Of a DNA stretch of 64,000 nt, positions 3,446-34,916 are shown piece after piece. Origin of the DNA: Girardinichthys multiradiatus. Taxonomy: Eukaryota > Chordata > Actinopteri > Cyprinodontiformes > Goodeidae. The notes under the pieces are model-generated. The model made no database searches, was not told the origin of the DNA, and saw nothing but the letters and a program-made list of their open reading frames with translations. Location: assembly GCF_021462225.1 (NCBI RefSeq), contig NC_061800.1, positions 17,592,749-17,656,748 on the forward strand, given 5' to 3'. Within the stretch, counting starts at the first letter, position 1. The number at the start of each line of letters is the position of its first letter. The translations under genes and the position numbers were made by a program.

Positions 3446-5055
3446 CAGGTCCTTCTCAAAATATTAGCATATTGTGATGAAGTTTATTATTTTCCATAAT
3501 GTAATGATGAAAATTTAACATTCATATCTTTTAGATTCATTGCACACTAACTGAAATATTTCAGGTCCTTTATTGCATTAATACGGATGATTGTGGCATA
3601 CAGGTCATGAAAACCCAAAATTCCTATCTCACAAAATTAGCATATTTCATCCGACCAATAAAAGAAAAGTGTTTTTAATACAAAAAACGTCAACCTTCAA
3701 ATAATCACGTACAGTTATGCACTCAATACTTGGTCGGGAATCCTTTTGCAGAAATAACTGCTTCAATGCGGCGTGGCATGGAGGCAATCAGCCTGTGGCA
3801 CTGCTGAGGTCTTATGGAAGCCCAGGTTGCTTCGATAGCGGCCTTTAGCTCATCCAGAATGTTGGGTCTTGAGTCTCTCAACATTCTCTTCACAATATCC
3901 CACAGATTCTCTATGGGGTTCAGGTCAGGAGAGTTGGCAGGCAAATTGAGCACAGTGATACCATGGTCAGTAAACCATTTACCAGTGGTTTTGGCACTGT
4001 GAGCAGGTGCCAGGTCGTGCTGAAAAATGAAATCTTCATCTCCATAAAGCTTTTCAGCAGATGGAAGCATGAAGTGCTCCAAAATCTCCTGATAGCTAGC
4101 TGCATTGACCCTGCCCTTGATAAAACACAGTGGACCAACACCAGCAGCTGACACGGGACCCCAGACCATCACTGACTGTGGGTACTTGACACTGGACTTC
4201 TGGCATTTTGGCATTTCCTTCTCCCCAGTCTTCCTCCAAACTCTGGCACCTTGATTTCCGAATGACATGCAGAATTTGCTTTCATCCGAAAAAAGTACTT
4301 TGGACCACTGAGCAACAGTCCAGTGCTGCTTCTCTGTAGCCCAGGTCAGGCGCTTCTGCCGTTGTTTCTGGTTCAAAAGTGGCTTGACCAGGGGAATGCG
4401 GCACCTGTAGCCCATTACCTGCACACGCCTGTGCACGGTGGCTCTGGATGTTTCTACTCCAGACTCAGTCCACTGCTTCCGCAGGTCCCCCAAGGTCTGG
4501 AATCGGCCCTTCTCCACAATCTTCCTCAGGGTCCGGTCACCTCTTCTCGTTGTGCAGCGTTTTCTGCCACACTTTTTCCTTCCCACAGACTTCCCACTGA
4601 GGTGCCTTGATACAGCACTCTGGGAACAGCCTATTCGTTCAGAAGTTTCTTTCTGTGTCTTACCCTCTTGCTTGAGGGTGTCAATAGTGGCCTTCTGGAC
4701 AGCAGTCAGGTCGGCAGTCTTACCCATGATTGGGGTTTTGAGTGATGAACCAGGCTGGGAGTTTTAAAGGCCTCAGGAATCTTTTGCAGGTGTTTAGAGT
4801 TAACTTGTTGATTCAGATGATTAGGTTCATAGCTCGTTTAGAGACCCTTTTAATGATATGCTAATTTTGTGAGATAGGAATTTTGGGTTTGTATGAGCTG
4901 TATGCCAAAATCATCCGTATTAAGACAATAAAAGACCTGAAATATTTCAGTTAGTGTGCAATGAATCTAAAATATAGGAATGTTAAATTTTCATCATTGC
5001 ATTATGGAAAATAATGAACTTTATCACAATATGCTAATATTTTGAGAAGGACCTG
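3446..5055 (-). mobile_element. Tc1/mariner transposon, complete copy (family A)
   Basis: A 1,610-bp element with inverted ends starting CAGGTCCTTCTCAAAATATT and ending with its reverse complement. It is flanked by TA on both sides (3444-3445 and 5056-5057), the target duplication expected for Tc1/mariner. It contains one open transposase frame on the minus strand. The same family recurs at 30285-31894 and, as a deletion derivative, at 48081-48660. Confidence 0.93.
3723..4727 (-). CDS. Tc1-like transposase, uninterrupted
   Basis: Codes for 334 residues, a normal length for a Tc1 transposase, which cuts and pastes its element between TA sites. The N-terminal third has two helix-turn-helix regions (TAVQKATIDTLKQEG and ERIGCSQSAVSRHLSG), then a basic GRKKCGRKRC linker. 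The catalytic DDE domain shows the first Asp in LFSDESKF, the second in FQHDLAPAHSAK and the Glu in SPDLNPIENLWD, so the DD34E-type triad is present. The start is the ATG at 4727, about 330 bp inside the right end, as usual for the family. The frame has no stop or frameshift. Whether the protein is still active cannot be judged from sequence. The near-copy at 30562-31566 differs by a premature stop. Confidence 0.92.
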   Translation of the reverse strand: MGKTADLTAVQKATIDTLKQEGKTQKETSERIGCSQSAVSRHLSGKSVGRKKCGRKRCTTRRGDRTLRKIVEKGRFQTLGDLRKQWTESGVETSRATVHRRVQVMGYRCRIPLVKPLLNQKQRQKRLTWATEKQHWTVAQWSKVLFSDESKFCMSFGNQGARVWRKTGEKEMPKCQKSSVKYPQSVMVWGPVSAAGVGPLCFIKGRVNAASYQEILEHFMLPSAEKLYGDEDFIFQHDLAPAHSAKTTGKWFTDHGITVLNLPANSPDLNPIENLWDIVKRMLRDSRPNILDELKAAIEATWASIRPQQCHRLIASMPRRIEAVISAKGFPTKY

Positions 5056-5999: not shown

Positions 6000-6082
6000 G
6001 GGGCGTAACCGTGGATGCTGATTGGTTGTCGTCATTAGGGGCGATACCTTAAATGACTCAATTAAAACACAGGGGTGTGTTT
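6000..6082 (+). repeat. Left terminal inverted repeat
   Basis: Eighty-three bases starting GGGGCGTAACCGTGGATGCT that match the reverse complement of 20666-20748 with three substitutions and no gaps. The left side ends abruptly in an oligo-G run, whereas GC-rich DNA continues on the right. Confidence 0.95.
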
Positions 6083-6225: not shown

Positions 6226-6301
6226 TTTAAATATATTGGATCAAGATGAGGTATTTAATGGATCACTGGCTCTGTGTACTCTCACCCACAGCGACTGAGC
6301 T

Positions 6302-6766
6302 GTGTTAAGGCTTGCAATCCCGCACCTTAATGATACCCCTGAAACTGTCTCAAAGCAGGAGAGGGATGAAGAAGAAGAAGAAAATGAACTGTCTCCTCGA
6401 CCTGTAAAATGGGTGAGAATGTTTCATATACCATCCGATGTTGAAATAGCTGAGAGAGAACCTCTCTTTAGCGCAGTGTGGGGGTCAAAAACCACAGCAA
6501 ATGGCCGCTGGTCTTTTCGGGCAAGCAGATGCAGGAACAACCGGACGAGTCCCTCAGATCTGTTTGTGTTGGAGGCTTTCAATCAGGACGGCGGCGTATT
6601 CAAGACAATGCTGGCTCTGCCGTTTGAAGCTTGGGCAGAGAAGATGAGTGAAATTGGACATCGTCTTTCCGACCTTTTCCACAAGTCACGAAGTTGGATC
6701 GATGTCATGTCAGTGAAAAAAACCCTGACGTTTCCTGTTTTACGTTTAGAACGAACCCTCTTCTGA
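6302..6766 (+). CDS. Accessory frame, possible PC4-like fold, 3' exon or short gene
   Basis: An open frame without an ATG at its beginning; the first in-frame ATG is at 6419. It is therefore either a 115-residue protein or the 3' exon of a spliced early gene. A possible donor (TGG followed by GTGAGA) lies at about 6413. The translated part has an acidic stretch (RDEEEEENEL), then a segment with hydrophobic strands (GRWSFRASRC, DLFVLEAF) followed by a helix (LPFEAWAEKMSEIGHRL). This strand-strand-helix pattern with an LxxExW-type helix start recalls the single-stranded-DNA-binding domain of transcriptional coactivator PC4/p15, but the similarity is by eye and weak. It is the first rightward frame of the element, an early-gene position. 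Function is unproven. Confidence 0.5.
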   Translation: MLRLAIPHLNDTPETVSKQERDEEEEENELSPRPVKWVRMFHIPSDVEIAEREPLFSAVWGSKTTANGRWSFRASRCRNNRTSPSDLFVLEAFNQDGGVFKTMLALPFEAWAEKMSEIGHRLSDLFHKSRSWIDVMSVKKTLTFPVLRLERTLF

Positions 6767-6822
6767 GGACACGCCCTATACGGGGGGATAACTGCAAGCT
6801 CACAGACACTGAGAATCGTATC

Positions 6823-7662
6823 ATGAGAATGAGTGGACCGACACCATACAGGAAGCTCTACAACCACCGAGCAGAGATCCACTTCTCTCCTGAGCACGAT
6901 GAAAGCTTCAACATTGGACCATATCATCCGCCTTCCCCTGACCTCTTCTCACCATCCACCTCAACATCCTCATTCTCAGAGAACCACTTCAGTCCTGCAT
7001 CACCTACAGGATACAACATGAAATATCTACCGCTTTCTCCAGACCTCTGCTCACCATCGCCGCTATTCATGGCTGAGTCTGTAGACGCGAATGTCCTGCC
7101 TGAAGACATGAAGGTGGTCGTGGAGGAGGAGGTAGCCACCGGCTACTCACCCTCTACCGAAGCCCCTACACAAACCCTGGAACCGATGGAGGACCCTCAG
7201 CCTTCAGCAGAGGATGAGAGTAACCAGGAGGACGAAATTGACGGTTGGTTCTCAACAACCCTCATCAATACGGTGAAAACAGCGATACTTCATTTATTCA
7301 ACATAACCTCTTTGAACTATCTCAGAGAAACCTGCTATGGGTGTATAACGAACCACCCGAGCCAGCGTCAACACCATTGCCTGGAGGTATTGGGGGAGGA
7401 TTATTACCAAGTCAACTTTCAACGCATCGTACGACGACTCGTAACCCCCAAACTCGTTCCTACTATTCAGAATCTTCTGGTACTTCGACGCATACAAGCG
7501 GATGACTTCAGAGTGAAGACGATTGCCAAGACGGTTTTATATGAACTGAAATCGGTACAAGGCATTCACAGTGCAATAGCGCACGTTTATGATCGCATGG
7601 TCGATGAGAAACATCTCAAACAACTTAACTCTGTTTCAGAGTGCTATGGACTGACAAACTGA
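6823..7662 (+). CDS. Accessory protein with Cys/His zinc-binding motif
   Basis: About 279 residues from the ATG at 6823; a second ATG follows at 6829, and the frame is open upstream only from a TTG. The first half is low-complexity and rich in Ser, Pro and acidic residues, with repeated SPDLFSP/SPDLCSP words, as in a disordered regulatory or transactivating region. The second half is ordered and holds Cys171, Cys174, His178, His184 or His185 and Cys186 in CYGCITNHPSQRQHHC, a likely zinc site, followed by helical sequence. I have seen similar C-x2-C...HPSQ...H-x-C proteins in fish Polinton/adintovirus-type elements but know of no assigned activity. It lies in a different frame from the preceding open frame and upstream of the integrase, suggesting an early regulatory role (inference). 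Confidence 0.7.
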   Translation: MRMSGPTPYRKLYNHRAEIHFSPEHDESFNIGPYHPPSPDLFSPSTSTSSFSENHFSPASPTGYNMKYLPLSPDLCSPSPLFMAESVDANVLPEDMKVVVEEEVATGYSPSTEAPTQTLEPMEDPQPSAEDESNQEDEIDGWFSTTLINTVKTAILHLFNITSLNYLRETCYGCITNHPSQRQHHCLEVLGEDYYQVNFQRIVRRLVTPKLVPTIQNLLVLRRIQADDFRVKTIAKTVLYELKSVQGIHSAIAHVYDRMVDEKHLKQLNSVSECYGLTN

Positions 7663-9120: not shown

Positions 9121-9894
9121 ATGAACCGTCAGGTAGAGGATGATGGCTTTTACGTTACTCTTCCATCTAATGCTAGCATGGAAGCGTTTAAAAATAATAC
9201 CAGTTCAAGTTTCCGTGTAAATTTAGCTCAACATATTGATTTAGAAGGCCAATGGATGGTTGCATTAGCAGAGATTTCATACCCTCATACGTGGCATAAT
9301 TTACCAGATTATGATGCCTACTTTGAATGGAGGAAGGTTGGTGATGTGGAGATCAATACGCAAAGGATCAGAAGTGGCTACTATAACAGCGTTATTCAAC
9401 TCGAGACAGAGATGAAAATGTTTTTCAAAAAATTGAAATCGGGTTTACGCATTAAATTCAGCAAAGTTCAAAAGAGATTTGCATTTCAAGCAAACAGTCC
9501 GTATGAAATACGCTTCTTCAGCACTCTAGCTTATATGATGGGCGTGAAACCAGGGGAATGGATTCATGTTTCTGAACCAAAACTGGCTCCTTTTCCGGCG
9601 GATATAAAGGCTGGTTTCTATCACCTATACTGTTACAGCGACGTGGTCAGCCCTCAAATAGTAGGCGACACTTTTGCACCTTTACTGCGGACCGTCAAAG
9701 TACAAGGCAAATTCAGTGATATGATTACTCAGATGTTTAACCCCGCCCACTACCTTCCAGTCTCCAGAAGAGATATTGAAAATATCAATATAGAAATTAA
9801 ATCGGACCAAAACGTTCCTGTAAATTTCGTCTATGGAAAGACCGTCATAAGACTACACTTCAGACCGGTGATATCACAACGTAGCCTGAGATAA
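9121..9894 (+). CDS. mCP: Minor capsid (penton-like) protein
   Basis: An uninterrupted frame of 257 residues. The opening FYVTLPSNASMEAFKNNT, the strand LEGQWMVALAEISYPHTWHN and the tail YGKTVIRLHFRP are characteristic of the single-jelly-roll minor capsid protein of Polintons, adintoviruses and related viruses. This protein forms the pentamers at capsid vertices. Its place between the integrase and the pVI/pX-like and major capsid genes fits a virion structural cassette. The start is the first ATG, 38 bp after the integrase stop. I see no stop, frameshift or missing block, so this is one of the few capsid genes that remains whole. Assignment is by pattern recognition; a profile search with Polinton minor capsid models would settle it. 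Confidence 0.85.
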   Translation: MNRQVEDDGFYVTLPSNASMEAFKNNTSSSFRVNLAQHIDLEGQWMVALAEISYPHTWHNLPDYDAYFEWRKVGDVEINTQRIRSGYYNSVIQLETEMKMFFKKLKSGLRIKFSKVQKRFAFQANSPYEIRFFSTLAYMMGVKPGEWIHVSEPKLAPFPADIKAGFYHLYCYSDVVSPQIVGDTFAPLLRTVKVQGKFSDMITQMFNPAHYLPVSRRDIENINIEIKSDQNVPVNFVYGKTVIRLHFRPVISQRSLR

Positions 9895-10008: not shown

Positions 10009-10452
10009 ATGGCACAGCTAAGTCTGAGACGTGATCCAAATCGCTTTGTAAATTACTATGTAAGTCAATCAGGCGGTAATCTGCCAGGGTTTTATGGGAC
10101 TCCGGTTATGTACGAACGCGGAATTGGATCATTATTTTCAAAATTATTCCGCTTCGTATCCCCTCTGGTTAAAAAAGGATTTGCAATTGCAAAACCCCAT
10201 CTTAAAACGGCTGCATCAAATATCGCTTCGGATGTCATCGGTAGAGCCGTGAGTAAAATGAGTGGTTCTACACACACCGACGGTCAAGAAGGTTCAGGAA
10301 TTATGGTTTTATCCAAAAGACCCAGAACAAGACCCCCTGGTGATCGTTTAAGGATGGTTAAAAAACAACGACAAACGCGAAAAAGGAGATCAGTTGGAGC
10401 AGACAAACGAAGAGGAAGGAAGTCATCCGCATGTTTTGATATATTTAAATAA
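10009..10452 (+). CDS. Basic virion protein, adenovirus pVI/pX-like
   Basis: Codes for 147 residues. Residues 36-80 (YERGIGSLFSKLFRFVSPLV and onward) form an amphipathic, glycine-led helix followed by KPHLKTAASNIASDVIG, recalling the membrane-active and capsid-cementing pVI proteins of adenoviruses and adintoviruses. Residues 102-138 are strongly basic (RPRTRP, KKQRQTRKRR, DKRRGRK), like a DNA-condensing core protein (pVII/pX). The combination suggests one protein doing both jobs, as an inner capsid and core component. The stop codon overlaps the ATG of the major capsid gene as TAATG, so the two are translationally linked in layout. The frame is uninterrupted. The name is by analogy; sequence identity to adenovirus proteins is not expected to be high. 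Confidence 0.7.
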   Translation: MAQLSLRRDPNRFVNYYVSQSGGNLPGFYGTPVMYERGIGSLFSKLFRFVSPLVKKGFAIAKPHLKTAASNIASDVIGRAVSKMSGSTHTDGQEGSGIMVLSKRPRTRPPGDRLRMVKKQRQTRKRRSVGADKRRGRKSSACFDIFK

Positions 10453-11594
10453 TGGCTCTTTTACATAACAAATCATCAGAGTGCACGCTGGCAGAGTTGG
10501 ACTTATTTTCTGCCCCGATGACGCAGCTATCGATCGAAGATAAAATTTACACCGAGATCCAGCCTTTATCAGCAATCACCGATGGAGGCCCGATCGAGTT
10601 TTTCATTCCGGGAGACGGAGAAAAGTATCTGGATGTCAACGATACGCTGTTGCATCTCAGAGTGAAAATTACTAACGAGGATGGAACAAACCTGCCGGAT
10701 GATGCACCTGTAGGGCTCATCAACTACCCGTTAAACACCATCTTCAGTCAGTGTGACGTCACTCTCGGAGATCGAATGATTTCACAATCCAGCGCTACAC
10801 ATCCATATAGAGCCATGATTGAGACATTGTAAAACTTTTCTGAGGATTCTTTAAAAACCCAGTTTAGCTCTGGTCTTTTTTATAAAGACACTGCAGGTGC
10901 TCTGAACTCTATTGTTACAACTAACGGCCCTAACCAAGGTCTTAACAGCAGAGCAGGCTTTACGGCAAATTCCAGGGAGGTACATCTCCTAGGCCCCCTG
11001 CATGCAGACATATTTTTCTGTGAGAGACTTCTTTTAAACTCTGTTGACCTCAAAATTAAACTTACAAAAGCCAACGATGCCTTTTGTCTCATGGCAGCAA
11101 GAGACTCCACTTACAAACTCAGGATATTAGGAGCATCTCTTTTTATCAAAAAAGTTACCCTCTCTCCAGCTGTACGACTGGGGCACGCTTCAGCTTTAAT
11201 GAAGGCAAATGCTCTGTATCCACTTTCACGTGTGAATGTAAAAACATATTCCATCCCTGAAAATTCAAGGGTATGCAACCAAGAGAATCTTTTCTTAGGC
11301 GTCTTTCGAAAGTATGTGGTGATTGCATTACTGGATCATGACGCTTTTACAGGAACACGCAATCTCAATCCGTTTGACTTTAATCATTTTGATATGGAAT
11401 ATTTAGCTTTGTGTAAGGATGGCAGACAAATTCCTGCTAAAGCCTTCCAGCCCAATTTTGACCAAGGTCATTCAGTGAGAGAGTATTACAACTTGTTTAC
11501 GGCTACAGGACGACATCTAAAAGATCTTCCGCTGAGTATAACACATCAGGAATTTAATCAAGGATACTCTCTATTCACATTTAATTATTATTAA
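10452..11594 (+). pseudogene. MCP: Major capsid protein (double jelly roll), one in-frame stop
   Basis: The hexon-like protein that builds the icosahedral shell. The frame spans 380 sense codons from the ATG at 10452. The N-terminal block has TQLSIEDKIYTEIQPLSAI, GPIEFFIPG and YLDVNDTLLHLRVKI, and the middle YPLNTIFSQCDVTLGDRMIS. The C-terminal block has PLSRVNVKTYSIP, FRKYVVIALLDHDAFTG and NPFDFNHFDMEYLALCKDG. This arrangement is the Polinton/adintovirus major capsid pattern. A TAA at 10830-10832 (codon 127) interrupts it early, and the same frame continues open to 11594; there is no frameshift. The ATG overlaps the previous stop (TAATG), and the protease starts 11 bp after the end. As read, only a 126-residue N-terminal piece would be made. 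Confidence 0.88.
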
Positions 11595-14054: not shown

Positions 14055-17000
14055 CTAATAACCGAAAGGCAGAGTTGTCCCGTCAGAAAAAAGACGTCTC
14101 TTATCATACACCAGTCGAAACTTTTTAAGAAATGTCGCGTTTATCAAACGGAATCTCTTTTTATCCCTCCTGATTGTGTGTTGAGGGATTTCAATGAAAC
14201 TCTCACCTGACTTCTGTAAGTAGCCCCCGACCAGCCCTTTGATGCTGTCAAAATTGACCCTCTCGCTGCATTCATGCGTCTGAGTGATGCCTTTAGCACG
14301 TATCACTACTTTTTTACGGTTTTTGGTCTGGTATGCATAACACTTGGGTCCTGTCGATGCAAGCTCCGAAATGCTGTCACCATCTAACTCGTCAGTAAGA
14401 TCACCCAGATAATTCCCCAATTCCAGAGGAGTTTCACCACTTTTTGTCACATAAATCAAACTGCCCGTGTCAATATAAATCAATCTGTCCTGTAACTTCT
14501 CCATGCTGCTGAGAAGTTTTAAACGTGCATAAGCGGTGGTGAATGCTGCAATAAACACATTATTTGTCTTACTTGGTGGATATATGACACGTTTACTGAA
14601 ATTCCACTGCACTACACACATTTCAGGGTTGAAAAAATGAAAATAGTTAACCCTGTATTTACTCGACAACATGAAGCTGAAAAAGTCTTCAGGGTTAGTG
14701 ATGACTGTGGTCTGAGACAGATCACTTCTTTGCGCAAATTTCCCCCAAAAACTGTTTAAACACAATTTTGCAACCTGCTTTTTGGCAGGATTCACCTCGA
14801 TTTTCTCAGGGTCTAATTGGATGCCCTGATGCAGTTTGTAGTCGCTTATATACTTTGACTTACTCTCCTGATCCACTGCTTCAGACGGATAGCCTGAAGC
14901 CTCCTGTTTACCCTTTAAAAAGCAATGAATGTAACCTTTAAAGACTGTATCACTGCTCTTTTCAAAATGCCACACCTCTGTGATTTTAGCAAGATGATAA
15001 CCACACTGTAACGCTTTACAGAGTTCTACACTCGCCCATACACCCGTCAGAGCTCTGTCCTCATCATTATGCATGCAGGGACCTGACTGGTTATTTATTT
15101 CAGCGCATGAGCGGCAGAGAGTGAACACAAGTTTACCTTGGGATATTCTGTAAGGTAAAACAGGGAACAACAGGTTACGTGGTGGGTAGACCACAGCTTT
15201 GATTATCCCGAAGTAGCTGCTGGGGTCATCAAAATCTTTGTAAATGATGGTGGGGTGTCCGAGGGGAAAAACGCAGTTGGCGTTTACATAAGGGTACAGA
15301 GATGTGTAATCCACATAGTGTACAGTTTCATCCGGTTCCGCTGTGTACCTCAACTTCATAGGACAGGTGCGTCCACCATACAGCGCATCCCGGGGGGATA
15401 GCGGTTCGGGTGCATTAACTTTCTCAAGAAAGCTGATCACCCCTGGGTCTGATTTTTTCATTTCAGTCCACTCATGCTCCCATATGACTTTGAGATGAAG
15501 GCCGTACACAGTTTGTAACACCTTGCTTTTCTCAACAAACTGTTCAAATGTGACCCCTCTCAACGGACACTTGTCATGAGGCATGTAACACTTTTTACAG
15601 CCGTGGAAAAAACAGCCGTAAAATTCAAATGCAACTTTGACACCGTTAATCTCTGCATACCCATCCACTGAATATGGCCCGATTTTCTTTTCACCCCTAT
15701 TTAATGCATGCTCGATAAATATGGCTCTGCTGTCTGCAATCCAGCCGAGCCATTGAATGGACGCGCTGGAGAACGTTTTACTGCTACGTCTGTAGTCCAG
15801 AGGTGATGGAATGGCTAAGTTTTGAGGAGGAAGGAAATTGGTTACAAAAACCTTCATGCAGGCTGATGCTATTGTGATACTTTTAAACGGATCCACACTT
15901 GTCTCCTTAAAGAACTCGTCTCTGAATTTTAAGCATCCTTGAGAAAGAATTTCAACGTCATTTTTACAATAACGAATAGCTTCTTTCTTAAAGTCAAAGA
16001 CCTCTTTGCTCGCTTCTCTGTACCAGCTGCTAAACACCTGTTGTTCTTGAACACTCATGCGTTCTACAGCGTAGCAGGATGGAGGAGGAAAAGGCCCCAC
16101 ATACTGGCGACGTTGTTCAGAGGAAAATAGGTGGGGAAAAAAAACCTTGCTTTGATCGGTAAAGCCTAACGCTTTCGGCATGACACTAAGCTTTATGCAC
16201 ATGAAAGACAGGCTATCAATGTATTTTAACCTGTAATCAGGGTCGGTTAAACAGAGAAGTTTACTTCCTACCATGACGTGATAAGGTTTAATGCCTAACT
16301 GCAGCATTGCTGTGAGAATCAGGTAACCATCATACCCACGCGCATTGTACGCTATTAAGGTGAAGCCTCTGTACTTCGGCCTCCTGAAATGCAGGAGAAA
16401 GTTTTGGGTGCAATTCAATCCATAAGCGTACCATTTATCACCTTTCAACGTTTTAGCACAGACCAGAAAGGGGGTATGCACGCCGCTCTCATTGACGAGG
16501 CATTCGAAATCATAAAAAATCAGTTTATCATCAAGCTGATTAATTGCACTGCAAGGCTGAATGTAACACTTATGATCATCGCATGTAATGTTTAGGCTGG
16601 GGGGTACATTTTCACCACAAATACTGCATTTTACATTACACACGTGTGGTTTATTCGGTTTACTGATTGGAATAACGTATATCCGTTTGCATACTTTACA
16701 CAGTTTTACCAACTCACAGTCACTCATAGGCCTTTCAGCACTATTTCTAATGCGCGGTTCCCTGTGTCTGCTGAAACATGAAGAATTACGACAGATTCTT
16801 TGACAGCCTGCACAGCTTACAGGATTGCTAATCTCTTGCATACATTTATATGTTCGACACACTGGACAATAACCTTCACAATGGTGTGTGTTTGCATTCT
16901 CATAGCTGGTGTAACAGTAATTACAAATATACTTGCACCCCATAAAACCTTTGAGATTTTTTATCCCATAGTAATGACCTTGAAATAACAGCAAAAACAC

Positions 17001-17135: not shown

Positions 17136-18173
17136 CTAGTCGAGGCCTGCCTGATGCTGCCATCTCCTCGCCAGTTCTACAGCACGGTGATCCGTGAGCT
17201 CAGGATCAGAGATGTGTGCGAGGCTGATTGCAAAACATAACTGATTACCGGTATTGTTTATAATATACAAATGACGCATTTTCTTATTAAACAGTTCACA
17301 GTCTAACGTTCCTGCAGCTTTACGCTTAGAACCTCCTGCTGGGTCATTAACAACCTGAAGAACAAATTCCATGTTATTATCTACAGGTATATTTGCATTC
17401 GATTGTACTAAATCGTCGAGGAAGTTTTCGAAAGCAGGCAGGATCATATTTCCATCATCTGTAACAGTAAATGTGACGTGACGATTGAGATTTTCACCCA
17501 CTAATTCCAGCTGCACAACGTCGTTACGTCTGGTTAAAGATCTTGCAGCGTCGGCTAATTCAATGAGAATACGCATGATGTTTGTATAGAATGCGGCTAA
17601 ATCTGGAACGTTACTTGGACAGGGCGGCGGTATGGTAAAAGGCCTCCTTATTTCATGGTTATTAAAATGTTCACGTTCAACCACGGGTGGTGGATCTCGC
17701 CCTATTTGATCAGAACTAACTGCTACTTCCGTATTGAAATGACCCCCGTGCTGATCTGCGGCGTGTGACGTAGAAGGATTCTGATGACTGTCAGGTGAAT
17801 CATTTTCCTCAATGCTGAGTGGAGACGGTGCTCTATTTAAATCTTCAAGAGCCTGATTGATTACGTTTAAAACGTCACCGTGCCGATCTGCGGCGTGTGA
17901 CGTAGAAGGATTTTGATGAGTGTCAGGTGAATCATTTTGCTGAATGCTGAGTGGAGACGGTGCTCTATTTAAATCTTCAAGAGCCTGATTGATTACGTTT
18001 AAAAAGTCACCGTGCTGATCTTCATTTATTACATTTTCACTGTTAGCAGGAGATGCATTTAAAACGATGTTATCTGCTACTTCTGCATTAACGGGAATTT
18101 CGTTAAGTTGAATTACTAAATTTCTTATTTCATCCAGGGCAAGTCTGATTCGTTTATCCATTTCTATGAACAT
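17136..18173 (-). pseudogene. PolB: N-terminal region of the PolB gene, cut off by TAG
   Basis: A 345-residue frame from the ATG at 18173 (or the in-frame ATG a few codons on, MDKRIRLALDE). It is in the same reading frame as the polymerase body and separated from it only by the TAG at 17136-17138, so the two were one gene of about 1,370 codons. The N-terminus is acidic and low-complexity with a 44-codon tandem duplication. The distal part (HVTFTVTDDGNMILPAFENF, GGSKRKAAGTLDCELFNKK, GNQLCFAISLAHI) resembles the N-terminal extension of Polinton polymerases, where the terminal-protein or priming function may reside (inference). A pyrimidine-rich tract ending in ATAG about 25 bp before the ATG could be a 3' splice site. 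The stop context TAG CAA ACA is a known readthrough-type context. Confidence 0.8.
17758..18021 (-). repeat. 132-bp tandem duplication inside the PolB N-terminal region
   Basis: Two adjacent near-identical 132-bp units (17758-17889 and 17890-18021). Each encodes 44 residues with NVINQALEDLNRAPSPLS followed by NDSPD and HQNPSTSHAAD. The length is a multiple of three, so the frame is kept. Confidence 0.93.
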
Positions 18174-18227: not shown

Positions 18228-18433
18228 TCAGTTTAAAATCACCTTGATGTCACCAAAATGCTTCTTTAACAGAATCTGACATGCTGCCAGAAGCGTTAAC
18301 GATGAGGCCTTATTACGAAGATCCCGTGAGGCTGTAGAGACTGTCTTCCTGCGCTGTCCGTTTCTGTAGCCAATCTGTCCTACCATCAACGTTACCTCTG
18401 TAAGGAGAATGAACAAAAAATAAATAAATAAAA

Positions 18434-18465
<32 letters not shown>

Positions 18466-19677
18466 TGAAATAAACACATTAAGCTGAAAAAAAAGGGGAA
18501 TTCAAATTAATTCAGTATGTATGAATTAAAACGTACCATTTATTAAACCTCTCAATAGCGTAGCTCTGGTATGCAGAGCAGAGAGTCGCTGTCTTTTGGC
18601 TGGGGTTAAATATTCTGTAAAAACAGAAGACAATAAAAGTTATCTTACGCTGCGCAGCACAGCGTTCATAAATAAACGATAATAGTTTTTAAAATACACA
18701 GGTTTTTTTTGTTTTTTTTTAAGGGGGAAAAAAAAACTAACAAAAAAAAAAACAATTTTGTTTTTATCTTACTCCGATTCTGTGCGGTAAAACCTCCAGA
18801 TTTCGCTTCTTGTTGGACTGAAACGGTGCCTCTCTGCTGAAAGCTGTCTTGATCTTTGAAAAGCGACCTTCTGGTGGGTGGATTCAGTGTGGATGTATCT
18901 GTAAACAGGTTTATATGATATTTTATTGAACTATGCTTAAAATACATATATATTGTTGTTTTTATTTTATTTTTATTTTTTTCTACCCTGCTGCTCGACA
19001 GCTGTGTCTTCCACAGAGCTCTCTGTCGAATCTGTAAACAGTTTTATCTGAGGTTTAAAACAAAGTCTCTAATAACACATAAATAAAATACATTCACTCT
19101 CAAAGAAAAACAGATAGTTCTTAGGACTTACTTTCTGGAGGTGCCGGTAACTTATCCGGTGTGTCTTCAGGGGAAATGATGATAATTGGCGGAGGAGTAT
19201 TCAAAGAATCAGTTTTAATTTCTGTGTTAGAAGAAAGTTCAGATGTTGTTGGGGTTTTTCTTGTTTGGAAATAATTTGCCTTCTCAATTTTGACTGTCGA
19301 TTCCAGCCGCTGAATCCTCCAACTTGATCATTCGAGTTTACCTCTCTCATCTAATCTATAAATTGAAACATTGTCAAGGGTTAACTATAATATATATATA
19401 TTTTTTTTATTGCATTTAACATTTACTTACCATATTCTGATTGTGTCAAGATGAAATTATCAAGGTCATCAGCGGTGGGTTCTATGACAAAGAAACAAAT
19501 ATATATATATATAAACAATATATATAAACAATATTAGAGAACATTCACATGCATTTAATGATTTCTTAAAGATGAATACTTACTTACTTACTTACTTTTA
19601 AAGATGTCATTGTACTTTTGTGAATCATTAGAAGTAGAAGCCACAATTTCCAGGTTTCCTGAAATATTTACCGACAT
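18228..19677 (-). CDS. Spliced accessory gene, seven phase-1-linked coding exons, unknown function
   Basis: Reconstructed from splice signals. Exons in transcript order: 19677-19596 (ATG at 19677), 19481-19431, 19350-19132, 19031-18987, 18898-18773, 18614-18537 and 18397-18228 (TGA at 18230-18228). All introns are GT-AG, 80-158 bp, with donors GTAAGT, GTAAGT, GTAAGT, GTAGAA, GTAAGA and GTACGT. Most acceptors end in a pyrimidine tract plus ACAG or ATAG, but that of the third exon (ATTAG) is weak. Every junction is in phase 1, and the sum, about 256 codons, stays in one frame. The product is polar: an acidic N-terminus (PTADDLDNFILTQSEY), a Pro/Ser/Thr-rich middle (NTPPPIIIISPEDTPDKLPA), a basic segment (YLTPAKRQRLSALHTRATLL), and a helical C-terminus (SSLTLLAACQILLKKHFGDI). 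The third exon has an in-frame TGA at 19330-19328. I do not recognise a family. It lies directly upstream of PolB, an early position. Confidence 0.6.
18437..18465. repeat. (TA)n microsatellite in an intron
   Basis: Alternating TA tract inside the last intron of the spliced accessory gene. Confidence 0.9.
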
Positions 19678-20596: not shown

Positions 20597-20700
20597 AATA
20601 ACACCCTTAAACACACCCCTGTGTGTTTTAATTGGCTCATTTAAGGCCTTCCCCGTAACACCCTTAAACACACCCCTGTGTTTTAATTGACTCATTTAAG
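20597..20700. repeat. Iterated subterminal motif, right end
   Basis: Two direct copies of an approximately 45-bp unit, each with CCCTTAAACACACCCCTGTG and TTTAATTGRCTCATTTAAGG, at about 20602-20646 and 20661-20702. The second overlaps the terminal repeat. It mirrors the array at the left end. Confidence 0.8.
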
Positions 20701-20748
20701 GTATCGCCCCTAATGACGATAAGCAATCAGCATCCACGGTTACGCCCC
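20666..20748 (-). repeat. Right terminal inverted repeat
   Basis: Reverse complement of 6000-6082 over 83 bp with three mismatches. Confidence 0.95.
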
Positions 20749-24828: not shown

Positions 24829-26378
24829 CAATACCGACCAAAAGTTTGGATACACCTTCTCATTCAAAGAGTTTTCTTTATTTTCATGACTATGAATATT
24901 GTAGCTTCACACTGAAGGCGTCAAAACTATGAATTAACACATGTGGAATTATATACTGAACAAAAAAGTGTGAAACAACTGAAAATATGTCATATTCTAG
25001 GTTCTTCAAAGTAGCCACCTTTTGCTTTGATTACTGCTCCGCACACTCTTGGCATTGTGTAGATGGGCTTCAAGAGGTAGTCACCTGAAATGGTTTTCAC
25101 TTCACAGGTGTGACCTGTCAGGTTTAATAAGTGGGATTTCAAGCCTTATAAATGGGGTTGGGACCATCAGTTGTGTTGTGCAGGAGGTGGATACAGTACA
25201 CAGCTGATAGTCCTACTGAATAGACTGTTAGAATTTGTATTATGGCAAGAAAAAAGCAGCTAAGTAAAGAAAAACGAGTGGCCATCATTACTTTAAGATA
25301 TGAAGGTCAGTCAGTCCGAACAATTGGGAAAACCTTGAAAGTGTCCCCAAGTGCAGTCACAAAAACCATCAAGTGCTACAAAGAAACTGGCTCACATGAG
25401 GACTGCCCCAGGAAAGGAAGACCAAGAGTCACCTCTGCTGCAGACGATAAGTTAATCCGAGTCACCAGCCTCAGAAATCGCAGGTTAACAGCAGCTCAGA
25501 TTAGAGAACAGGTCAATGCCACACAGAGTTCTAGCAGCAGACACATCTCTAGAACAACTGTTAAGAGGAGACTGTGTGAATCAGGCCTTCATGGTAAAAT
25601 AGCTGCTAGGAAACCACTGCTGAGGACAGGCAACAAGCAGAAGAGACTTGTTTGGGCTAAAGAACACAAGGAATGGACATTAGACCAGTGGAAATCTGGG
25701 CTTTGGTCTGATGAGTCCAAGTTTGAGATCTTTGGTTCCAACCACCGTGTCTATGGTGTGGGGTGCTTTGCTGCTGACACTGTTGGGGGATTTATTCAAA
25801 ATTGAAGACATACTGAACCAGCATGGCTACCACAGCATCTTGCAGCGGCATGATATTCCGTCCGGTTTGCGTTTAGTTGAACCATCATTTATTTTTCAAC
25901 AGGACAATGACCCCAAACACACCTCCAGGCTGTGTAAGGGCTATTTGACCAAGAAGGAGAGTGATGGGGTGCTGCGCCAGATGACGTGGCCTCCACAGTC
26001 ACCGGACCTGAACCTTATCGAGATGGTTTGGGGTGAGCTGGACCGCAGAGTGAACGCAAAAGGGCCAACAAGTGCTAAGCATCTCTGGGAACTCCTTCAA
26101 GACTGTTGGAAAACCATTTCAGGTGACTACCTCTTGAAGCTCATCAACAGAATGCCAAGAGTGTTCAGAGCAGTAATCAAAGCAAAAGGTGGCTACTTTG
26201 AAGAACCTAGAATATGACATATTTTCAGTTGTTTCACACTTTTTTGTTCAGTATATAATTCCACATGTGTTAATTCATAGTTGTGATGCCTTCAGTGTGA
26301 AACTAAAATATTTATAGTCATGAAAATAAAGAAAACTCTTTGAATGAGAACATGTGTCCAAACTTTTGGTCGGTACTT
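24829..26378 (+). mobile_element. Tc1/mariner transposon, family B, broken copy
   Basis: About 1,550 bp between inverted ends (CAATACCGACCAAAAGTTTG on the left, its counterpart on the right), flanked by TA at 24827-24828 and 26379-26380. It is the same family as 33285-34916. Confidence 0.88.
25242..26217 (+). pseudogene. Tc1-like transposase, internal deletion and frameshift
   Basis: Starts MARKKQLSKEKRVAIITL and matches the open copy at 33448-34500 closely through the helix-turn-helix region and the first catalytic Asp (LWSDESKFEIFG). Near 25752 about 100 bp are missing compared with that copy, joining NHRV directly to the segment before GCFA. An extra G in the run at 25785-25789 shifts the frame, and the rest (FQQDNDPKHTS, SPDLNLIEMVWGELD) reads in another phase to 26217. 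The second Asp and the Glu are still present in the shifted part. Not functional. Confidence 0.88.
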
Positions 26379-30286: not shown

Positions 30287-31894
30287 GGTCCTTCTCAAAA
30301 TATTAGCATATTGTGATAAAGTTTATTATTTTCCATAATGTAATGATGAAAATTTAACATTCATATATTTTAGATTCATTGCACACTAACTGAAATATTT
30401 CAGGTCTTTTATTGTCTTAATACGGATGATTGTGGCATACAGCTCATGAAAACCCAAAATTCCTATCTCACAAAATTAGCATATTTCATCCGACAAATAA
30501 AAGAAAAGTGTTTTTAATTCAAAAAACGTCAACCTTCAAATAATCACGTACAGTTATGCACTCAATACTTGGTCGGGAATCCTTTTGCAGAAATGACTGC
30601 TTCAATGCGGCGTGGCATGGAGGCAATCAGCCTGTGGCACTGCTGAGGTCTTATGGAGGACCAGGATGCTTCGATAGCGGCCTTTAGCTCATCCAGAGTG
30701 TTGGGTCTTGAGTCTCTCAACGTTCTCTTCACAATATCCCACAGATTCTCTATGGGGTTCAGGTCAGGAGAGTTGGCAGGCCAATTGAGCACATTGATAC
30801 CATGGTCAATAAACCATTTACCAGTGGTTTTGGCACTGTGAGCAGGTGCCAGGTCGTGCTGAAAAATGAAATCTTCATCTCCATAAAACTTTTCAGCAGA
30901 TGGAAGCATGAAGTGCTCCAAAATCTCCTGATAGCTAGCTGCATTGACCCTGCCCTTGATAAAACACAGTGGACCAACACCAGCAGCTGACACGGCACCC
31001 CAGACCATCACTGACTGTGGGTACTTGACACTGGACTTCTGGCATTTTGGCATTTCCTTCTCCCCAGTCTTCCTCCAAACTCTGGCACCTTGATTTCCGA
31101 ATGACATGCAGAATTTGCTTTCATCCGAAAAAAGTACTTTGGACCACTGAGCAACAGTCCAGTGCTGCTTCTCTGTAGCCCAGGTCAGGCGCTTCTGCTG
31201 CTGTTTCTGGTTCAAAAGTGGCTTGACCTGGGGAATGCGGCACCTGTAGCCCATTTCCTGCACACGCCTGTGCACGGTGGCTCTGGATGTTTCTACTCCA
31301 GACTCAGTCCACTGCTTCCGCAAGTCCCCCAAGGTCTGGAATCGGCCCTTCTCCACAATCTTCCTCAGGGTCCGGTCACCTCTTCTCGTTGTGCAGCGTT
31401 TTCTGCCACACTTTTTCCTTCCCACAGACTTCCCACTGAGGTGCCTTGATACAGCACTCTGGGTACAGCCTATTCGTTCAGAAATTTATTTCTGTGTCTT
31501 ACCCTCTTGCTTGAGGGTGTCAATAGTGGCCTTCTGGACAGCAGTCAGGTCGGCAGTCTTACCCATGATTGGGGTTTTGAGTGATGAACCAGGCTGGGAG
31601 TTTTAAAGGCCTCAGGAATCTTTTGCAGGTGTTTAGAGTTAACTCGTTGATTCAGATGCTTAGGTTCATAGCTCGTTTAGAGACCCTTTTAATGATATGC
31701 TAATTTTGTGAGATAGGAATTTTGGGTTTTCATGAGCTGTATGCCAAAATCATCCGTATTAAGACAATAAAAGACCTGAAATATTTCAGTTAGTGTGCAA
31801 TGAATCTAAAATATATGAATGTTAAATTTTCATCATTACTTTATGGAAAATAATGAACTTTATCACAATATGCTAATATTTTGAGAAGGACCTG
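30285..31894 (-). mobile_element. Tc1/mariner transposon, second full-length copy (family A)
   Basis: Exactly 1,610 bp, as is the copy at 3446-5055. It has the same CAGGTCCTTCTCAAAATATT ends, TA on both sides, and only scattered substitutions between the two. Its transposase carries a premature stop. Confidence 0.93.
30562..31566 (-). pseudogene. Tc1-like transposase, premature stop
   Basis: Same frame and length as the gene at 3723-4727, from the ATG at 31566. A TAA at 31486-31488 (codon 27) lies in the first helix-turn-helix. After it the frame is open to the end, with the DDE residues in LFSDESKF, FQHDLAPAHSAK and SPDLNPIENLWD intact. Reinitiation at a later codon would lose the first DNA-binding helices. 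The few differences from the other copy suggest recent insertion. Confidence 0.9.
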
Positions 31895-33284: not shown

Positions 33285-34916
33285 CAGTACAGACCAAAAG
33301 TTTGGACACATGTTCTCATTCAAAGAGTTTTCTTTATTTTTGTGACTATGAATATTGTAGCTTCACACTGAAGGCATCAAAACTATGAATTAACACATGT
33401 GGAATTATATACTGAACACAAAAGTGTGACACAACTGAAAATATGTCTTATAATCTAGGTTCTTCAAAATAGCCACCTTTTGCTTTGATTACTGCTCCGC
33501 ACACTCTTGGCATTCTGTTGATGAGCTTCAAGAGGTAGTCACCTGAAATGGTTTTCCAACAGTCTTGAAGGAGTTCCCAGTGATGCTTAGCACTTGTTGG
33601 CCCTTTCGCCTTCACTCTGCTGTCCAGCTCACCCCAAACCATCTCGATTGGGTTCAGGTCCGGTGACTGTGGAGGCCACGTCATCTGGTGCAGCACCCCA
33701 TCACTCTCCTTCTTGGTCAAATAGCCCTTACACAGCCTGGAGGTGTGTTTGGGGTCATTGTCCTGTTGAAAAATAAATGATGGTCCAACTAAACGTAAAC
33801 CGGATGGAAAAGTATGCCACTGCAAGATGCTGTGGTTGCCATGCTGGTTCAGTATGCCTTCAATTTTGAATAAATCCCCAACAGTGTCACCAGCAAAGCA
33901 ACCCCACACCATCACACCACCTCCTCCATGCTTCACGGTGGGAACCAGGCACGTAGAGTCCATCTGTTCACCTCTTCTGTGCCGCACAAAGACACGGTGG
34001 TTGGAACCAAAGATCTCAATCTTGGACTCATCAGACCAAAGCACAGATTTCCACTGGTCTAATGTCCATTCCTTGTGTTCTTTAGCCCAAACAAGTCTCT
34101 TCTGCTTGTTGCCTGTCCTCACCAGTGGTTTCCTAGCAGCTATTTTACCATGAAGGCCTGATTCACACAGTCTCCTCTTAACAGTTGTTCTAGAGATGTG
34201 TCTGCTGCTAGAACTCTGTGTGGCATTGACCTGTTCTCTAATCTGAGCTGCTGTTAACCTGCGATTTCTGAGGCTGGTGACTCGGATTAACTTATCGTCT
34301 GCAGCAGAGGTGACTCTTGGTCTTCCTTTCCTGGGGCGGTCCTCATGTGAGCCAGTTTCTTTGTAGCACTTGATGGTTTTTGTGACTGCACTTGGGGACA
34401 CTTTCAAGGTTTTCCCAATTGTTCGGACTGACTGACCTTCATTTCTTAAAGTAATGATGGCCACTCGTTTTTCTTTACTTAGCTGCTTTTTTCTTGCCAT
34501 AATACAAATTCTAACAGTCTATTCAGTAGGACTATCAGCTGTGTACTGTATCCACCTCCTGCACAACACAACTGATGGTCCTAACCCCATTTATAAGGCT
34601 TGAAATCCCACTTATTAAACCTGACAGGTCACACCTGTGAAGTGAAAACCATTTCAGGTGACTTCCTCTTGAAGCTCATCAACAGAATGCCAAGAGTGTG
34701 CGGAGCAGTAATCAAAGCAAAAGGTAGCTACTTTGAAGAACCAATAATATAAGACGTATTTTCAGTTGTTTCACACTTTTTTGTTCAGTATATAATTCCA
34801 CATGTGTTAATTCATAGTTTTGATGCCTTCAGTGTGAAGCTACAATATTCATAGTCATGAAAACAAAGGCAACTCTTTGAATGAGAAGGTGTGTCCAAAC
34901 CTTTGGTCTGTACTGT
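33285..34916 (-). mobile_element. Tc1/mariner transposon, family B, complete copy
   Basis: A 1,632-bp element with inverted ends beginning CAGTACAGACCAAAAGTTTG, flanked by TA (33283-33284 and 34917-34918). The transposase frame is open. Confidence 0.92.
33448..34500 (-). CDS. Tc1-like transposase, uninterrupted
   Basis: Codes for 350 residues from the ATG at 34500. The paired DNA-binding region holds KRVAIITLRNEGQSVRTIG and VSPSAVTKTIKCYKETG, then a GRPRVTSAADDK hinge of GRPR type. The catalytic domain has Asp in VLWSDESKIEIFG, a PTVKHGGGGVMVWGCF glycine-rich box, Asp in FQQDNDPKHTS and Glu in SPDLNPIEMVWGEL, so the DD34E triad and all standard blocks are present. No stop or frameshift. It is a cut-and-paste enzyme for TA-flanked elements and could in principle act on the broken copy at 24829-26378, which has near-identical ends. 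Activity is not demonstrable from sequence. Confidence 0.92.
   Translation of the reverse strand: MARKKQLSKEKRVAIITLRNEGQSVRTIGKTLKVSPSAVTKTIKCYKETGSHEDRPRKGRPRVTSAADDKLIRVTSLRNRRLTAAQIREQVNATQSSSSRHISRTTVKRRLCESGLHGKIAARKPLVRTGNKQKRLVWAKEHKEWTLDQWKSVLWSDESKIEIFGSNHRVFVRHRRGEQMDSTCLVPTVKHGGGGVMVWGCFAGDTVGDLFKIEGILNQHGNHSILQWHTFPSGLRLVGPSFIFQQDNDPKHTSRLCKGYLTKKESDGVLHQMTWPPQSPDLNPIEMVWGELDSRVKAKGPTSAKHHWELLQDCWKTISGDYLLKLINRMPRVCGAVIKAKGGYFEEPRL

Follow-up and report, generated by a model that had tools for sequence, protein, structure and literature searches.

The window, a 64,000-nucleotide stretch of the Girardinichthys multiradiatus genome (C7:17592749-17656748), carries at 6.0-20.75 kb a degraded Maverick/Polinton (adintovirus-like) element, which has many copies across the genome of this small Mexican fish, a member of the Goodeidae. 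The element is bounded by terminal inverted repeats with 83-nt arms that pair at 96% and lie 14.6 kb apart, the left one at 6000-6082 and the right one at 20666-20748. An ORF on the minus strand (14055-16943) matches the Pfam profile for PolB (PF03175) with an E value of 1.7e-41. Upstream of it on the same strand lies a 345-aa ORF (17136-18161), with an acceptor-like site just before its ATG, that represents the N-terminal part of the Maverick PolB gene; it is a separate ORF in the window copy because of a stop, and its relatives P0042 and P0045 run on into PolB. The Takifugu protein P0036 is 41% identical to this ORF over 96%. An independent accessory gene at 17136-18173 had been considered and was rejected, as its relatives turned out to be fused to PolB.

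The remaining genes of the element are in varied condition. Integrase matches are split between two adjoining ORFs: rve scores 25.2 bits, short of its curated cut-off (32.6), and Chromo scores 32.7 bits, above its own; the integrase gene is therefore broken in the window copy. Matches to the Pox_A32 ATPase (35.3 bits) and to the adenovirus-type protease Peptidase_C5 (22.4 bits) both exceed their cut-offs. ORFs at 9121-9894, 10009-10452 and 10452-11594 occupy the place expected for capsid genes; the first two, searched against Pfam, gave no capsid match. Searches of IMG/VR with PolB and integrase returned no relatives. The left accessory region, on the plus strand at 6300-7662, holds a 279-aa ORF without a Pfam or PHROGs match, and an unlisted open stretch ahead of that ORF (~6.3-6.77 kb) looks coding by eye. 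We take the ORFs at 3723-4727, 25242-26217, 30562-31254 and 33448-34500 of the window to resemble Tc1/mariner transposases.

Between PolB and the right terminal repeat, a predicted spliced gene runs on the minus strand from 19677 to 18228, reading towards PolB. Exon 1 (19596-19677, 82 bp) codes from an ATG at 19677 and ends inside a GTAA repeat, which makes its donor ambiguous in steps of 4. Exon 2 (19431-19481) encodes an acidic segment and is 51 bp long, as it is in 38 of 39 related copies. Exon 3, skippable and corrected here to 19132-19355, is followed by exon 4 (18987-19031), which measures 45 bp in the window, 45, 48, 51 or 60 bp in the 39 copies and up to 105 bp in diverged ones. Exon 5 (18773-18898, 126 bp) bears the RxLF motif of clade A, and exons 6 (18537-18614, 78 bp) and 7 (18228-18397, 170 bp with the stop codon) encode the first and second parts of a basic helical domain.

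The original prediction had chained seven exons in this region, and six of them (1, 2 and 4-7) were confirmed, with GT..AG introns and phase 1 at every junction. Its central claim, that all six introns are in phase 1, was borne out, including on both sides of the corrected exon 3, as was the divisibility of the inner exon lengths by three, with exon 3 taken as 225 bp in most copies. In the case of exon 3 as drawn (19350-19132), the continuous frame and the size of 219 bp both failed: an in-frame TGA lies there, so that the frame is not continuous, and 38 of 39 related copies lack the AG at 19352-19351 on which this acceptor depends, the 39th being gapped. An AG five bases upstream of the drawn acceptor (19357-19356) is present in all 39, and from it exon 3 measures 225 bp in 36 of them and 226, 228 and 222 bp in the remaining three. 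The window copy has lost one base, which shifts the frame, and at 224 bp with a stop its exon 3 is therefore broken; skipping the exon yields an open frame of 183 residues. A first correction, which used an internal acceptor at 19222 and gave a 90-bp open exon 3, was dropped because the copies favour 19357-19356 with 225 bp. From its retention in 38 of 39 copies, the AG at 19222 may be an alternative acceptor. Intron-intron repeats that would indicate one duplicated intron were sought, and only short AT-rich matches were found.

Copies were searched for in 1,149,971,962 bases of the genome. For those near the window copy (clade A), the best 40 of 1073 candidates were scored, and the 39 long matches besides the window copy were used; copy numbers are lower bounds, and the 39 near copies are not independent of each other. 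C24 and C25 hold five pairs of copies at corresponding places, and in four pairs the scores are equal or almost so, as one would see if the two were homologous chromosomes or haplotypes. Seventeen of the 39 near copies are open from ATG to stop across seven exons, 13 of these with six GT..AG introns. Counted by intron, GT..AG was found in 29 (intron 1), 38 (intron 2), 39 (intron 3), 35 (intron 5) and 30 (intron 6) of the 39, and in all 39 for intron 4 once sequence, and not alignment column, decides where its donor lies. Splice dinucleotides were kept at 0.98 and 0.97, compared to 0.88-0.91 for other GT/AG dinucleotides. Exon 4 has a length divisible by three in every near copy, and exon 5 in 37. 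Net length changes were divisible by three in 47 of 74 exon cases and 59 of 182 intron cases (cells below 70% length excluded; 33 of the 47 are in exon 5), with a Fisher p of 6e-6 that is too small because the copies share descent. Exons 1, 6 and 7 had mostly out-of-frame changes (in-frame to out-of-frame 1:10, 0:6 and 4:6, respectively), which reflects decay, as expected of dead copies.

Twenty diverged loci (L048-L067) were chosen among matches to the protein P0002, for which the best 150 of 2234 candidates were scored; ten were picked for long open frames, and the sample therefore leans to open exons 5 and 7. One locus, L058, has an intron 5 that is ~3.3 kb longer and was excluded from the alignment, leaving 19. 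All 19 have an exon 5 of 126-141 bp whose length divides by three; exon 4 is absent in 2 and spans 45-105 bp, again divisible by three, in the other 17. The length class of exon 7 is preserved in 18 loci, the 78 bp of exon 6 in 16 and the 51 bp of exon 2 in 15. For exon 3, the length is divisible by three in 12 of the 19 when an empty cell and two short ones (15 and 24 bp) are counted, and in 10 of the 19 when they are not. Of 85 donor and 107 acceptor dinucleotides (intron 1 donor excluded), 80 and 98, respectively, were kept, compared to 0.72-0.79 for other GT/AG, and the intron 1 donor reads A|GT in all 14 diverged loci having an exon 1 match. The surroundings are kept as well, with the PolB N-terminal part downstream in 20 of 20 loci, the next PolB part in 18 and terminal-repeat-side sequence upstream in 14. 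Some copies match exons 5 and 7 within a single long open frame; these were considered as unspliced versions, a reading that was dropped because they hold the same exon blocks and splice signals. In seven copies (L048-L054), exons 5-7 form one frame of ~234-263 residues, since introns 5 and 6 read through in frame without a stop; retention of these two introns would likewise yield a protein there.

Estimates of dN/dS (Nei-Gojobori, exons 2-7, in-frame stop-free exons only) were 0.40 among diverged copies, 0.43 for near versus diverged copies and 0.43 among near copies. Exon 2 alone, with few synonymous sites, gave 0.71, 2.48 and 1.40, and exon 3, with an open frame in 35 of the 40 near copies counted, gave 0.32-0.37. 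A control that used all copies, with codons fixed by alignment column and exon 3 trimmed to its first part, returned 0.43-0.52 in frame, 0.82-1.15 in the two shifted frames and 0.68-1.15 for introns read as codons; dN/dS was below 0.55 in the proposed frame only. The expectation that exons and not introns would be conserved among copies held in three respects, reading frame, indels and splice sites, and failed within clade A for the plain rate of substitution. Between the window copy and diverged copies, substitution was 0.05-0.17 in introns and 0.08-0.15 in exons, clade A introns being not more substituted; synonymous differences between young and diverged copies (0.215) exceeded intron differences, and blastn coverage within clade A was equal for exons and introns (0.91). 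Since clade A introns are as similar as exons, it is by frame and splice sites, not by raw similarity, that the exons stand apart. Exons, which are richer in CpG, may mutate faster.

A second clade (clade B, P0008-like) is numerous too, with at least 200 matches (best 150 of 1617 candidates scored), and its proteins are 37-42% identical to those of clade A. The ten clade B loci examined (L068-L077) have exon order and phase as in clade A and most splice sites in common. An AG precedes exon 7 in 10 of 10 loci, exon 5 in the 8 of 8 with a match and exon 2 in 6 of 7; it was seen before exon 3 in 6 of 8 loci and before exon 6 in 7 of 9, the remaining matches beginning inside the exon. Among matches that extend as far as the donor, a phase 1 GT follows exon 3 in five loci, exon 5 in 5 of 6 and exon 6 in 7 of 8. 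The gap between exons 3 and 5 is only 97-115 bp in the four loci with both ends read, leaving no room for exon 4 plus two introns. PolB N-terminal sequence lies downstream in all ten loci, in one as a short match only. Between the clades, blastn covered 0.36 of exon bases and 0.20 of intron bases, unevenly among exons.

The gene had also been called unrecognised, which holds in that no described family was found, but pieces of it are already in GenBank as goodeid hypothetical proteins. The related proteins, 11 and then 30, are all of this kind, with no Maverick link in their names, and come from eight genera: Girardinichthys and Xenoophorus, Goodea, Ameca, Ataeniobius, Ilyodon, Xenotaenia and Characodon, the last seven of which we take to be Goodeidae. 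The protein P0002, isoform X2 of Girardinichthys LOC124871093, maps without mismatch to exons 2, 4, 5, 6 and 7 of L058 with the same junctions, and reads exon 1 of that locus in another frame with the donor 4 bases on. It belongs, like similar goodeid hypothetical proteins, to the same gene family and is annotated as uncharacterised. This isoform and one Xenoophorus prediction pass from exon 2 directly to exon 4, without exon 3; the label X2 implies another isoform, and the goodeid predictions P0004, P0008, P0011, P0020 and P0025 include exon 3 sequence.

The stop in the drawn exon 3 of the window copy and the many broken copies are what a decaying unspliced accessory region would leave, with the exon chain an artefact of choosing splice signals in AT-rich DNA. 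That account is highly improbable given the purifying selection specific to the frame, the conserved splice dinucleotides, the same architecture in the ~40% identical clade B and the independent NCBI model. By comparison of its copies, the gene is real, and it is almost certainly a spliced coding gene: the copies open over seven exons (17 of 39), the frame-specific dN/dS, the conserved splice sites and the clade B architecture all uphold what was first proposed.

The stated absence of a described family was supported, with no Pfam match, solved structures no better than E 0.5 and related proteins confined to goodeid hypothetical ones. The first protein, structure and Pfam searches used a 213-residue query built with the 90-bp exon 3. 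A PHROGs search gave only weak matches, for P0001, at E 0.009 and 0.0098. The protein and structure searches work from shared 5-residue words, and a diverged source could have escaped them. Such a source could be an intron-bearing host gene that was captured by a goodeid Maverick and diverged past recognition, in which case the phase 1 introns would be the host's. Introns are reported to be rare in Mavericks and the gene was found in goodeids only in the protein searches made, both of which speak for capture; the same searches, however, brought up no host homologue, and we consider this origin unlikely.

The product had been described as acidic at the N-terminus and basic and helical at the C-terminus, and its net charge agrees: -4 in exons 1-2, -5 in exon 4, +2 in exon 5, +5 in exon 6 and +8 in exon 7, with predicted helices. 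The AlphaFold2 model of the whole of P0001 has a mean pLDDT of 62 and a pTM of 0.32, and that of the C-terminal piece P0014 a mean pLDDT of 74 and a pTM of 0.44, with two helices (4-35 and 47-80). A fold search with the C-terminal model returned 385 matches at E <= 10, none at E <= 0.001, the best being 0.51. Two short motifs recur, RxLF in exon 5 translations (32/32 near, 17/19 diverged) and TPx[KR] in exon 6 translations (30/32 near, 15/15 diverged), and a cell-cycle adaptor that docks cyclin through the exon 5 RxLF and is a CDK substrate through the exon 6 TPxK would put both to use. Such motifs nevertheless arise in shuffled sequences as well (R.LF in 4.5%, [ST]Px[KR] in 10.7%), and among the clade B proteins inspected (P0008, P0009, P0015, P0020, P0023 and P0025) the RxLF segment is missing and TPx[KR] occurs only in P0015, which makes this putative role quite doubtful. 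No LxCxE Rb-binding motif, as in small DNA tumour virus oncoproteins of the E1A-like kind, was seen by eye in the 183-residue translation.

Taken together, the comparisons among copies demonstrate, at the level of their DNA, a protein-coding, spliceosomal seven-exon gene that was kept under purifying selection while goodeid Maverick elements multiplied. The architecture as first read was right except for exon 3; the function of the product is inferred. The best explanation as a whole, and one that we consider highly probable, is a seven-exon, phase 1 gene of goodeid Mavericks under purifying selection with a presumed role in early regulation; taken by itself, that the product is an early regulator is a tentative suggestion. 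Transcription would be driven from the terminal repeat side towards PolB, and the host nucleus would splice the primary transcript, with exon 3 optional and, over evolution, exon 4 as well. The product would be a small nuclear regulatory adaptor, whose N-terminal segment is acidic and whose C-terminal domain is a basic helix-hairpin, and would act early, before or with PolB, like the spliced terminal early genes of adenoviruses. Those genes, E1A and E4, are spliced regulatory genes beside the terminal repeat with several isoforms per transcription unit; they differ from the gene described here in having no sequence relation to it, far fewer introns per gene and introns that are not all in phase 1. 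Immediately ahead of the PolB ATG (18165-18161) lie a pyrimidine-rich stretch and an AG that are kept in 35 of the 36 near copies with letters there, and the AG was not seen in the ten clade B loci. This AG may be a 3' splice site of the PolB mRNA, joining it to upstream exons.

Exon-skipping isoforms are probably, though by no means surely, in regular use. The NCBI isoform X2 and the Xenoophorus prediction without exon 3, and clade B without exon 4 and with its frame undamaged, argue for this and against skipping as noise, with the full-length protein as the sole functional product and the uniform phase as an accident of intron origin. That alternative nonetheless keeps some plausibility and is the less favoured of the two: exon 3 is under selection in its reading frame (as given by its dN/dS and by the near copies in which it is open), and the full-length form therefore matters. 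The regulator might evolve by shuffling removable phase 1 cassettes: one transcription unit by the terminal repeat would give in-frame isoforms, and from clade to clade a whole cassette (exon 4) would come or go, with exons 1-2 and 6-7 retained as end modules; we offer this as a possibility rather than as the expected outcome.

The element shares with vertebrate Mavericks/Polintons, as described by Barreat and Katzourakis (2021, PMC8097293), the PolB-side and integrase-side modules on opposite strands facing inward, the terminal inverted repeats and the accessory region between PolB and a terminal repeat. In that account, intact elements carry eight conserved intronless ORFs and no introns in their genes; the statement concerns the conserved genes of intact elements, and accessory genes are given there as ORFs only. 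The accessory gene described here, in contrast, has six introns, and the intronless state is a reported trait of these elements and not a defining one. With adintoviruses (Buck et al. preprint, PMC11071296) the element has in common a PolB with an extra N-terminal part, an rve-type integrase with a chromodomain and an adenovirus-type protease. It differs in its spliced gene, since the available excerpt of the preprint mentions no spliced (early) gene of this kind; the adintovirus 'Oncoid' class is defined there by linear motifs. A literature search at the level of titles and abstracts found none on spliced Maverick genes.

A six-intron gene is under selection in many copies and in two clades within one genome, and goodeid Maverick elements would therefore depend on nuclear splicing. 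This dependence would give a handle on the timing of element transcription. ORF-based surveys of Mavericks and adintoviruses can overlook entire accessory genes. With a uniform phase, exon gain, loss and skipping all spare the reading frame, and the gene lends itself to testing how a virus-like element evolves by modules.
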